NCBI GenBank assembly: GCA_001508855.1
Contig: LGFL01000012.1
Span: 1-33,271, forward strand
Length of the DNA: 33,271 nt
Reading direction: 5' to 3'
Source: Thermoanaerobacterales bacterium 50_218
GTDB taxonomy: Bacteria; Bacillota; DSM-12270; Thermacetogeniales; Thermacetogeniaceae
Below the pieces are notes generated by a model. The model saw only the letters and a program-made list of their open reading frames with translations, was not told the DNA's origin and did no database searches. The number at the start of each line of letters is the position of its first letter. The stretch's first letter is position 1. The position numbers and the translations under genes are program-made. Shown piece after piece: positions 1,210-4,573 of the stretch.

Positions 1210-1235
1210 CAGTGGCTCACCAGAAAAATCGAGGT

Positions 1236-1263
1236 ACCGCAAGGGTTTTGCGGTGCTTTTTTT
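1236..1263 (+). terminator. Rho-independent terminator of vapBC
   Basis: ACCGCAA (1236-1242) pairs with TTGCGGT (1248-1254) across a five-base loop and is followed by GC and a run of seven T (1257-1263). It ends the toxin-antitoxin operon and is the probable insertion target of the intron relic that starts at 1264. Confidence 0.85.
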
Positions 1264-1400
1264 GTGCGCTCGGCATGGGCGTTGGTTATAAGGGTTAGAA
1301 TCTGGTGCGAAACAGATGACAGCGAGAAGGGAGCAGTGTTAGCCAAGAATGGCATGGCAAGTAAGCTGGTGAGTGTGATGGGCGGTCTTGTGAAAGTGAA
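1264..1400 (+). mobile_element. 5' fragment of a class C group II intron (relic)
   Basis: The segment opens with GTGCGCTCGGCATGGGCG, close to the 5' end of bacterial class C group II introns such as the Oceanobacillus one (GUGUGCCCGGCAUGGGUG). It continues with a TATAAGGGTTAGAATC-like stretch and a CAGATGACAGC..GTTAGCC region resembling intron domain I. No reverse transcriptase frame and no domain V are present, so only the 5' part survives; the 3' limit given here is approximate. Class C introns insert just after terminator hairpins, and this one begins at the first base after the vapBC terminator T-run. The rest of the gap to 1568 shows no gene. Confidence 0.55.
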
Positions 1401-1568: not shown

Positions 1569-2324
1569 ATGGAAAAGAGCCAGTTGGGAATACTTGTTGA
1601 GGAGTTAGGCACCAGTGACTATGAGAGGAAACTTTGGCAAAAGCTTTTGCAGGAAGCCACTTCAGGTGCCGAGGCAAGTGAACTCCGAGAAAGACTGCGA
1701 GAACCGTTGCTTGAGTTACTTAAGGAGTTGGGGGAAGGTTCGTTTGGAACAAAACTACAACTCGTTAGCAAGAAGTTAAAGGAATTCCCAACTGTCGATA
1801 TTTTGCCTCTAGTGCTGGAGCTTTGTGGTGAATTGCGTCAGGAGAAGGAGCAAGCTCTTCAGGAGTTTCAGCAGATGCTCTCCGAATTGGCAACTCCGGT
1901 GATTCGCATCTGGACAGATGTCCTTCTGGTTCCGCTTGTTGGCGGTTTGGATAGTGACCGCGCTCAGGGTATGGTAGAACGACTTCTGGAGCGCGCCAGC
2001 AGCACCCGGGCGAAGGTGGTCATTGTTGACGTCAGTGGGGTTCCCATGATCGACACAGCGGCCGGTGGCTTTCTTATTGAAATGTTCAGTGCTGTAAAGC
2101 TGTTGGGAGCTGATGTTATTCTTACCGGTCTCAAGCCAGAAGTCGCTCACACCCTTGTGAAGCTGGGGATAGACTTCCAGATGGTGGTGATTGCTCGTGA
2201 CCTCGAAGATGCGCTGCGGCGGGCTATCGCCATGCTTGAGGAAGAGAAGAGACAGCAGCAGAAGATTGCGCGCGTGTGGGGTGGGGGGTTTCTAGGTGAA
2301 GGAGAAGAAAGTGATGAGGTTTGA
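1569..2324 (+). CDS. rsbR: RsbR-type stressosome sensor/scaffold protein
   Basis: This 251-residue protein has a variable N-terminal domain (about 1-110) and a C-terminal STAS domain (about 115-225) containing VVIVDVSGVPMIDTAAGGF. RsbR paralogues build the stressosome core with RsbS and pass a signal to the kinase RsbT. Thr163 (in MIDT) and Thr195 (in VAHTL) sit where RsbT phosphorylates B. subtilis RsbR. The N-terminal domain is helical, has no recognisable haem or flavin site, and its signal is unknown. The ATG at 1569 follows GGAGG (1556-1560) by 8 bases; upstream in-frame sequence to 1422 comes from non-coding DNA. It overlaps rsbS by 11 bases and heads a five-gene operon. Confidence 0.9.
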   Translation: MEKSQLGILVEELGTSDYERKLWQKLLQEATSGAEASELRERLREPLLELLKELGEGSFGTKLQLVSKKLKEFPTVDILPLVLELCGELRQEKEQALQEFQQMLSELATPVIRIWTDVLLVPLVGGLDSDRAQGMVERLLERASSTRAKVVIVDVSGVPMIDTAAGGFLIEMFSAVKLLGADVILTGLKPEVAHTLVKLGIDFQMVVIARDLEDALRRAIAMLEEEKRQQQKIARVWGGGFLGEGEESDEV

Positions 2325-2667
2325 AGAAAGGGTGGTTCCCACAATTAAGATCGGTGATTGCCTGCTGGTACCGATCCAGATAGACCTCGATGACAGAACA
2401 GTTGAACAGCTTCAAGCACAACTGTTGGCGGAAATTCAGGAAAAGCGGGTTCGGGCGATCATTCTCGATGTTCGCATGGTGGATGTGATTGACAGCTATA
2501 TTTCTTACACTCTTTCAGAGACCGCGGCGATGGCCCGACTAATGGGGTGTCAGGCGGTGATTTGTGGCATTCAACCTGCCGTGGCCCTCACTTTGGCCCA
2601 GATGGGGATAGAACTGCGAAATCTTATGGTTGCTCGCGATCTTGAGCACGCTTTGGCACTGGTGTAG
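2314..2667 (+). CDS. rsbS: RsbS, stressosome STAS-domain scaffold protein
   Basis: RsbS is a single STAS domain of 117 residues that forms the stressosome with RsbR and, unphosphorylated, holds RsbT. The motif MVDVIDSYIS places Ser61 at the position equivalent to the RsbT-phosphorylated Ser59 of B. subtilis. CLLVPIQIDLDD near the N-terminus and CGIQPAVALTL near the C-terminus are also typical. I chose the ATG at 2314 because the protein then starts MRFEERVVPTI, like known RsbS; GTG at 2311 or 2296 are in-frame alternatives. Its start overlaps the end of rsbR, and GGAG at 2301-2304 serves as ribosome site. Confidence 0.93.
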   Translation: MRFEERVVPTIKIGDCLLVPIQIDLDDRTVEQLQAQLLAEIQEKRVRAIILDVRMVDVIDSYISYTLSETAAMARLMGCQAVICGIQPAVALTLAQMGIELRNLMVARDLEHALALV

Positions 2668-2722
2668 TTTCTTCAGGAGAGGAGTAGGGGTTTTGGAAGG
2701 AGAAAGGGATAAGAGGGGGCTC

Positions 2723-3151
2723 ATGGACATCCAAGAAGAAGATTTTGATGTGGTTGTACGCATTAGCAGGGAGGACGATATTGCCATAGCGAGGCAGATG
2801 GCCAAACAGCTTGCCCAGGAGGCAGGTTTTTCTCTTGCTGATGTGACTAAGATAGCTACTGCAGTTTCTGAGCTTGCTCGCAACATTTATCGTTACGCTC
2901 AAACTGGGGTGATCATGATCCGTAAGCAGTACCAAGAGACGAACAATCCCACTGTTCAGGTGGTAGCCGTTGATCGTGGTCCAGGAATCGAAGACCTTGA
3001 CCTTGCTCTGAGAAGGGGTTACACCACCCATGAGCGCAGCTTGGGTATAGGTTTGTCAGGGGTAAAGCGCCTCATGGATTCTTTTGAAATTGCCTCTAAG
3101 GTTGGGGTTGGGACTACAGTAGTAGTTGAGAAGAGGAGGCGCAAATTTTGA
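2723..3151 (+). CDS. rsbT: RsbT, stressosome serine/threonine kinase
   Basis: This 142-residue GHKL-fold kinase has the N box SELARNIYRYA, the G1 box VDRGPGIEDL and the G2 box LGIGLSGVKRLMD. RsbT phosphorylates RsbR and RsbS on stress, leaves the stressosome, and binds the N-terminal domain of an output enzyme, classically the phosphatase RsbU. No RsbU follows here; the likely partner is the GGDEF protein two genes on. I chose ATG at 2723, giving MDIQEEDFDVVVRI, as this matches the family length; a TTG at 2693 with GGAG 8 bases upstream would add ten residues. A 55-base gap separates it from rsbS. Confidence 0.93.
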   Translation: MDIQEEDFDVVVRISREDDIAIARQMAKQLAQEAGFSLADVTKIATAVSELARNIYRYAQTGVIMIRKQYQETNNPTVQVVAVDRGPGIEDLDLALRRGYTTHERSLGIGLSGVKRLMDSFEIASKVGVGTTVVVEKRRRKF

Positions 3152-3774
3152 CACCTGAAAATGATTCCTCAAGAACTTTTGGGCAAGAAGAAAAAAACAA
3201 CAAGTGGGAAGTGTTTACATGTATACGCCCTCGCTGCCTGGAGAAAGCGGGTGGTGACTTCTGTTATGTCAAGGAGAAGGATGGAGATGTCCTTGTAGTC
3301 TTGGCAGATGTGCTCGGACATGGAGAGAGAGCATACCAGGATGCAGTAATTATCTCTGAGGCGCTTCAACATGCTTCCGGGGGGTTATCACAAGTCTATT
3401 TACTGTTGGAAACTGCGGCTTCCCGGACGCGGGGGTGTGCTCTTTTCCTAGCTTCGCTGAAGGAGGTAGCAATCGAATACATCCTGATCGGGAACATCAG
3501 AGGGTGGTTGGTGACACCGTTTGCGGTTGAGGGTTTAGTGAGGCAACCAGGGATCGTAGGGAAAAAGATGGTCAAACCCATTATCCGCCACAGAGAAGTA
3601 ACGGGAACTGCGTATCTTTTGGTTTGCAGTGACGGGATCAGATCCGGCTTTTCTCCTACAGTCTTGAGACACTTCTGGGAATCGTCCTTGGCGACCACTG
3701 CCTGCCATGTGCTGGGGAAGTACGGGATAGCTGAAGATGACGCCAGTGTGCTGGTAGCAAGGAGGTGCGTTTAG
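3148..3774 (+). CDS. rsbX: RsbX-type PP2C phosphatase of the stressosome
   Basis: This 208-residue SpoIIE/PP2C-like phosphatase matches the size of RsbX. The metal-site motif VVLADVLGHGERAYQDA is near residue 50-65, LVCSDGIRSGF near 160 and EDDASVLVAR at the end. RsbX dephosphorylates RsbR and RsbS to reset the stressosome. The TTG start at 3148 overlaps the rsbT stop (TTTTGA) and has GAGGAGG (3133-3139) 8 bases upstream, so translation is coupled to rsbT. Having both kinase and phosphatase implies a complete reversible switch. Confidence 0.88.
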   Translation: MTPENDSSRTFGQEEKNNKWEVFTCIRPRCLEKAGGDFCYVKEKDGDVLVVLADVLGHGERAYQDAVIISEALQHASGGLSQVYLLLETAASRTRGCALFLASLKEVAIEYILIGNIRGWLVTPFAVEGLVRQPGIVGKKMVKPIIRHREVTGTAYLLVCSDGIRSGFSPTVLRHFWESSLATTACHVLGKYGIAEDDASVLVARRCV

Positions 3775-3778
3775 CTAG

Positions 3779-4573
3779 TTGAGTGGTGATTTTTATACTG
3801 CGTACAGGAATTACCTTGAACGCTATATTTACGAAGGCGCCCCTGAAAGTGTGCTTTTAGAGGCATACCAACACCTACCACATTACTTGGAAGAAAGCGA
3901 AGCCCAGGCTGCGAACATTCTTGATGTGCACACACGTGCTCTGCGCGAGGTCATGGGAATCAGGCGGGACAACGACAGCGTGCAGTGGATATATATAGAG
4001 CGGGCTACTGAATTTTTGGCGCAATTCCTGATAGTTGTTGATTCTGTTCTACTCCAACTTAGGGAAAGAGTCGAACGCGACAACCTCACTGGGCTCTACA
4101 ACAGGCTGGGACTCCAGCGCCTGCTTACCCAGATGTTAGAAACAGCCCGGGAAAGAGGAGAACCACTGGTCGTCGCCTTATTGGATCTTGATGATTTCAA
4201 GCAAATCAACGACATCTATGGTCACCAGGCTGGTGACGATGTCCTTTGTTTCGTGGCTCGTTTGATCACCAGAACCCTGCGAAGTGATGATGTGGTGGCG
4301 CGGCTTGGAGGTGAAGAGTTTGTGATTGTTCTTCCAGCAACGGATTTTGCTAAAGCGAGGGTTCCTCTCGAGCGAATTCGGGCTCAAATCGCAGCGGAAA
4401 AAGCGCTTCCGGGATTAGAGGGTCTTACCGTAAGTATAGGTGTTGCCGGATACACCGGACGAGGTACCCCTGACCCTGAGGAACTCCTTCGTCAGGCAGA
4501 TCAAGCGATGTATCGCGCCAAAAAATTGGGCAAGAACAGGATCGTGTTCTTTGGAGGAGAGGGAGAGGAATAA
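3779..4573 (+). CDS. RsbU_N-GGDEF diguanylate cyclase, stressosome output
   Basis: This 264-residue protein has two parts. Residues 1-95 resemble the RsbT-binding N-terminal domain of RsbU: an helical domain with ANILDVHTRALREVM, similar to the I-x-x-IHRKVL segment of RsbU. Residues 100-260 form a GGDEF domain with DNLTGLYNR, LDLDDFKQIND and the active site GGEEF (177-181). An inhibitory c-di-GMP site, R168-S-D-D171, sits exactly five residues before it. The protein should make c-di-GMP from GTP when RsbT binds the N-domain, with product feedback. The TTG start at 3779 uses AAGGAGGT (3759-3766). It takes the place of rsbU, as described for Moorella thermoacetica. Confidence 0.9.
   Translation: MSGDFYTAYRNYLERYIYEGAPESVLLEAYQHLPHYLEESEAQAANILDVHTRALREVMGIRRDNDSVQWIYIERATEFLAQFLIVVDSVLLQLRERVERDNLTGLYNRLGLQRLLTQMLETARERGEPLVVALLDLDDFKQINDIYGHQAGDDVLCFVARLITRTLRSDDVVARLGGEEFVIVLPATDFAKARVPLERIRAQIAAEKALPGLEGLTVSIGVAGYTGRGTPDPEELLRQADQAMYRAKKLGKNRIVFFGGEGEE

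Follow-up and report, generated by a model that had tools for sequence, protein, structure and literature searches.

A compact stressosome operon ending in a diguanylate cyclase, distinct from the Moorella type, in a Thermoanaerobacterales bacterium

In the stressosome cycle the switch kinase RsbT is released on stress, acts on a client protein and is recaptured after the phosphatase RsbX has dephosphorylated the RsbR/RsbS scaffold. The client in Bacillus subtilis is the phosphatase RsbU and the output is sigma-B, while the operon MtR-MtS-MtT-MtX-MtG of Moorella thermoacetica (PDB 3ZTB, 3ZT9, 3ZXN) ends in a diguanylate cyclase (DGC), a GGDEF client with an RsbU_N-type domain and an intact inhibitory site (I-site). 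In Gram-negative bacteria, stressosomes with a globin RsbR have an RSTX module followed by GGDEF, EAL or histidine-kinase clients, some of which carry RsbU_N (PMC9237108). Here we describe an operon of the Moorella gene order, RsbX included (rsbR-rsbS-rsbT-rsbX-DGC, positions 1569-4573, + strand), in a stretch of 33,271 nucleotides, the window, from Thermoanaerobacterales bacterium 50_218 (assembly GCA_001508855.1, contig LGFL01000012.1). The general idea of a stressosome acting on a DGC is already known from Moorella, but the operon of the window represents a compact lineage of its own, which is new. We think it probable that in this lineage released RsbT controls cyclic di-GMP (c-di-GMP) by binding the cyclase, instead of acting on sigma-B, leaving aside the direction of that control.

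All five reading frames are open and follow one another with overlaps or short gaps, with the coordinates, order, domains and motifs claimed for them in a first-pass annotation of the window. The gene rsbR (1569..2324, ATG start) encodes a short helical N-domain (residues 1 to about 108) and a STAS domain (residues 112-215) with Thr163 and Thr195 as the phosphosite equivalents, and rsbS (2314..2667, ATG, alternative GTG at 2296) one STAS domain, in which the motif VIDS contains the serine equivalent to Ser59. These are followed by rsbT (2723..3151, alternative TTG start at 2693), the switch kinase, with ATP-site motifs SELARN, DRGPGI and LGIGL, and by rsbX (3148..3774), which starts at a TTG overlapping the rsbT stop and encodes a PP2C-type feedback phosphatase with GGD, DVLGHG, SDG and DDA motifs. 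The DGC gene (3779..4573) starts at a TTG 4 bp past rsbX, with AAGGAGG about 11 bp upstream, and its product of 264 residues consists of an N-domain (residues 1-95, 3779..4063) and a GGDEF domain (residues 100-254 by Pfam, 4076..4540), with no GAF domain. The I-site R-S-D-D (residues 168-171, 4280..4291) and the active-site motif GGEEF (residues 177-181, 4307..4321) lie exactly where they had been placed, and 23 aligned DGCs show no variation at R168, at D171 or anywhere in the GGEEF motif. Pfam matches STAS in RsbR and RsbS, HATPase_c_2 in RsbT and GGDEF in the DGC (E 2.6e-45); RsbX falls under the Pfam SpoIIE cut-off, yet matches Moorella RsbX (3ZT9) at E 2e-12. The window thus holds an RsbRSTX module of four adjacent genes with phosphorylatable threonines in RsbR and serine in RsbS, an intact RsbT ATP site and intact RsbX metal motifs, next to a predicted active cyclase (GGDEF domain above the cut-off, GG(D/E)EF site, RxxD I-site). 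STAS homology suggests that RsbR and RsbS may form the pseudo-icosahedral complex that sequesters RsbT.

The first-pass annotation had named Moorella as the precedent, and the operon of that organism was found among the relatives (locus L205); the RsbX encoded there is 100% identical to 3ZT9 over 191 residues, so L205 is the known Moorella operon or its counterpart in a strain that is nearly identical. It also has both RsbX and a retained I-site (rsbR-S-T-X-MtG; REVD...GGEEF), and these can no longer be regarded as special features of the window, as had been proposed. The features that do set the window apart from Moorella are a cyclase lacking GAF, an RsbT of another clade in which a contact residue has changed, and the GGDEF-EAL protein linked to the system. 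MtG has 439 residues, with a canonical RsbU_N domain (E 6.5e-19), a GAF and a GGDEF domain, whereas the DGC of the window has 264 residues and its N-domain is divergent. The Moorella RsbR is likewise longer (272 residues, with a longer N-domain, compared to 251), and the two RsbTs fall in separate clades with support of 100/100, MtT keeping Asp92 where the window has Arg.

Among 399 genomes of the phylum, 25 were found to have the compact DGC N-domain, that of the window included; from the window's own family 19 further members were sampled, and none gave a match. The full rsbR-S-T-X-DGC order is kept at about 20 of the loci, spread across many families of the phylum, a recurrence that cannot be put down to chance. 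In a tree of RsbT, 21 compact-type sequences are split from all others by a branch of 1.21 changes per site (support 100/100), and the Moorella-type sequences lie nearer to the RsbU-type RsbTs than does RsbT of the window. A tree of GGDEF domains, for which the background was taken from a whole-DGC scan of contigs that had returned only general GGDEF proteins, also splits compact from Moorella-type DGCs (98–100% for the compact group). Its topology suggests that the compact lineage recruited its GGDEF domain independently of Moorella, but an approximately unbiased test leaves a single origin standing (p 0.076) and independent recruitment is not claimed.

A search with RsbT recovered other stressosome loci in the phylum, with RsbU-type phosphatases as clients (five loci), histidine kinases (one with RsbU_N, two without), a GAF-GGDEF-HD-GYP protein (one locus), or Moorella-type DGCs consisting of canonical RsbU_N, GAF and GGDEF domains (L205 and one other by Pfam, five more by profile and length). 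The genus that holds L205 includes four genomes with the compact type and two with the Moorella type, and none of the sampled genomes was seen to have both. Four compact DGC copies have no adjacent rsb genes; at one of these (L125) the lone DGC is directly preceded by a piece of the RsbR N-domain, as if the operon had eroded. In another locus (L109:1703-3865) an insertion encoding a DUF772/DDE transposase interrupts rsbT, while the frames of rsbR, rsbS and rsbX and those for the DGC and the EAL protein are still open. In a subclade represented by ten loci an additional RsbT-like HATPase domain precedes RsbX in one fused protein (about 320 residues), and a similar fusion occurs at four loci with other stressosome types.

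The DGC N-domain had been described as RsbU-like, which holds for the family compared as a profile and not for the protein's own sequence. A profile of 16 compact N-domains matches a profile built from four RsbU N-domains (Bacillus, Lysinibacillus, Listeria and Staphylococcus) with an hhalign E-value of 2.2e-4, a score that 0/300 column shuffles reach, and matches a broader client set, in which Moorella-type DGCs, histidine kinases and RsbU are represented, with an E-value of 5.5e-5 (score 31.8, compared to a maximum of 20.7 in 200 column shuffles). The first 87 residues of the Bacillus RsbU sequence used were verified against PDB 2J6Y and 1W53. The match spans helices 1-3, where Tyr, Leu and the central His are common to both sides, and the Pfam RsbU_N family (PF08673) matches 9 of 23 relatives of the DGC, the best at E 0.0035. 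Conservation of the N-domain is also strong, with 22 invariant columns out of 93, which fits a partner-binding surface. An AlphaFold2 model of the DGC, with a mean predicted local distance difference test (pLDDT) score of 87.6 and lower scores, 63-90, in the N-domain, predicts four helices (residues 3-18, 23-36, 47-59 and 67-98), the fourth of which runs unbroken from the N-domain straight into the GGDEF domain (3977..4072), which agrees with the proposal that RsbT clients have a coiled-coil architecture (PMC12143880).

Several observations weigh against an RsbU-like client bound by RsbT. The N-domain of the window itself scores 11.8 bits against RsbU_N, where the cut-off is 25.5, and a PF08673 search of the window's genome gave no match. 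Helix 4, which is part of the RsbT contact in Bacillus, has no sequence alignment to RsbU_N, and a profile search of the PDB with the N-domain did not find RsbU at E-values up to 1. The first 50 Foldseek matches of the DGC model were all GGDEF-containing chains, the best being SiaD of Pseudomonas, and so they speak neither for nor against a match of the N-domain fold to RsbU (1W53, 2J6Y). Finally, RsbT Asp92 forms a salt bridge with RsbU Arg91 that is required for activation (PMC12143880), and this residue, present in all RsbU-type (6/6) and Moorella-type (7/7) RsbTs examined and in the RsbT that accompanies the RsbU_N histidine kinase, is replaced in 21/21 compact-type RsbTs, by Arg or Lys in the window's subclade (Arg in the window) and by Gly, Ala or Ser in the other. 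Arg19 is invariant among the compact RsbTs and Arg23 has become Lys. Positions are given in what we take to be the numbering of Bacillus RsbT; the residues agree with those named in PMC12143880, and the contrast itself rests on the loci fetched here. The shuffle-beating profile match nevertheless rescues the RsbU_N assignment despite the Pfam score below the cut-off, and the comparison supports the N-domain as a remote RsbU_N homologue. As Asp92 is replaced throughout the compact lineage, the contact between RsbT and its client has probably diverged from that of Bacillus, which predicts that compact RsbT/client pairs are insulated from RsbU-type pairs.

In the cycle that we propose for the window, the scaffold of RsbR and RsbS would retain RsbT until a signal at RsbR led RsbT to phosphorylate RsbS and RsbR and depart. 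Free RsbT would then bind the DGC at its four-helix N-domain and at the linker helix, altering the pairing of two GGDEF domains, and would be recaptured once RsbX had dephosphorylated the scaffold. It is conceivable that the DGC is merely co-transcribed with the stressosome genes and that its N-domain serves for dimerisation or ligand binding and has nothing to do with RsbT, as its weak sequence match to RsbU_N and the lone DGC copies might suggest. We think this improbable, since the profile match to RsbU_N beats every shuffle, the gene order is kept in about 20 genomes, and three of the four genomes with orphan copies hold a compact stressosome elsewhere. A mechanism in which RsbT phosphorylates the DGC, rather than binding it stably, appears more improbable still: the Moorella event has been described in this way (PMC4976288) and the kinase motifs of the window's RsbT are intact, but other accounts give binding (PMC7647112) or control via the RsbU N-domain (PMC12143880), and the RsbU_N-type domain of the DGC is a binding module in RsbU.

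Even if released RsbT binds the DGC as we propose, the direction of its effect has to be considered separately. The first-pass annotation held that RsbT raises c-di-GMP, a sign which is not established, as in the sole tested case Moorella MtT binds MtG and attenuates it (PMC7647112). An activating RsbT, which would raise c-di-GMP under stress by making the linker an ordered coiled coil and thereby dimerising the GGDEF domains, is possible, and we hold it with some doubt. It would accord with the activation of RsbU by RsbT through ordering of a flexible linker (PMC12143880), with the single continuous helix from N-domain to GGDEF domain in a DGC that has no GAF domain, and with SiaD, in which activation by SiaC comes from stabilisation of the stalk (PMC8457831). 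SiaD ranks first in the Foldseek search, but that match rests mainly on the GGDEF domain, and the nearest tested pair remains the attenuating one. As MtG is the only DGC client to have been tested, we lean slightly by analogy towards RsbT binding lowering the activity of the cyclase. The SiaABCD system resembles that of the window in placing a DGC under a phosphorylation-controlled partner switch that works via an N-terminal stalk (PMC8457831); it differs in that the binder is SiaC and not the kinase RsbT and in having no RsbR/RsbS scaffold, and the N-domains of the two cyclases are not known to be related.

The window shares with Bacillus subtilis RsbR-S-T-U/X the scaffold, switch kinase and feedback phosphatase families and, by the profile match above, the RsbU_N-type client domain, but its output is a GGDEF cyclase. 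Neither RsbV, RsbW, RsbU nor sigma-B was found in the assembly (1.77 Mb in 121 contigs), which is 94% complete, such that genes in the remaining 6% are possible; the first-pass annotation had likewise noted that none follow the operon, and we find no sigma-B general stress pathway. The STAS proteins of the assembly are RsbR, RsbS and SpoIIAA only, and its single PF07228 protein is SpoIIE. Candidates for sigma-B among SigBFG-family matches turned out to be SigF and two copies of SigG, the latter beside sigE-type genes. The two sigE-sigG clusters, on contigs C5 and C31, differ from each other; C5 is a contig of 5.5 kb and may come from another strain.

The short N-domain of RsbR, in which the first-pass annotation had sought the novelty of the system, is real: residues 1-108 are predicted to form four helices (pLDDT mostly 78-92), and no Pfam family was matched. 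It is far less conserved than the STAS domain (mean majority residue 0.45 compared to 0.82). Low conservation and the lack of a family are typical of RsbR sensors, and the signal read by this domain cannot be named from sequence. A shortened globin was considered, for which hhalign against other RsbR N-domains gave 17.1, slightly above shuffles (13.8). Foldseek aligns the whole RsbR model to Listeria RsbR with a template modelling score of 0.66, but with a root-mean-square deviation of 6.4 A. The stressosomes with globin sensors (PMC9237108) differ in this respect from that of the window, where the N-domain is of about 100 residues and without a Pfam family.

In six relatives a GGDEF-EAL protein of about 575 residues is encoded directly 3' of the DGC, and in a seventh locus (L218) its gene follows rsbX, the DGC having been lost from that place. 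The EAL motifs of these proteins are intact and the GGDEF motif is degenerate in several. The orthologue in the window's genome lies away from the DGC at the end of another contig (C104:300-2039); in this genome and one other the DGC and the phosphodiesterase stand apart but both are retained. A profile of the GGDEF-EAL N-domain finds 8 of the 399 genomes, all within the 25 that have the compact DGC (hypergeometric P 7e-11, which is overstated, as seven of the eight had first come to notice via adjacency, the same eight supplied the profile and the genomes are relatives of one another). This N-domain bears a faint resemblance to RsbU_N, with E 0.22 against PF08673 in L110 and an hhalign score of 23.8, where 150 shuffles give at most 19.6 but the reversed profile gives 20, and we treat the likeness as a lead and not as a result. 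That RsbT acts on both the DGC and the phosphodiesterase, the latter via a second, very divergent RsbU_N-like domain, is a tentative and rather unlikely suggestion. If it were true, one stress switch would move synthesis and breakdown of c-di-GMP in opposite directions.

The genome encodes one PilZ protein, inside the cluster flhB-flhA-flhF-flhG-PilZ-cheB-cheA-cheW-cheC-cheD-sigD, and has one c-di-GMP-I riboswitch (C120:4529-4617, - strand), upstream of a methyl-accepting chemotaxis protein gene and beside a membrane GGDEF gene. With PilZ in a flagellar and chemotaxis operon and the riboswitch before a chemoreceptor gene, motility is the likely output. Several other GGDEF proteins are also present, and the DGC of the window would therefore be one c-di-GMP input among some.

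Upstream, the operon is bordered by a terminator-like hairpin of a PIN-domain gene (1231..1266, + strand; 13-pair stem, T tail), in a region where a scan found seven hairpins, barely above the shuffle mean of 4.5. The PIN-domain protein follows a small overlapping open reading frame (474-1209), and the two resemble a VapBC-type toxin-antitoxin pair. Downstream, 526 bp separate the end of the DGC from the next gene, a formate/nitrite transporter. A promoter scan gave one weak match, fewer than in shuffles, and no Rfam element was found in the window.

Within the literature read, biochemical study of c-di-GMP control by a stressosome is limited to one organism. The compact lineage is a second and clearly separate one, and its minimal cyclase of two domains, in which no GAF domain sits between the receiver and the catalytic domain, provides a simpler system in which to ask how RsbT sets the activity of a cyclase, whether up or down. 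The phosphodiesterase linked to it suggests that breakdown as well as synthesis of c-di-GMP may be under the control of the stressosome.

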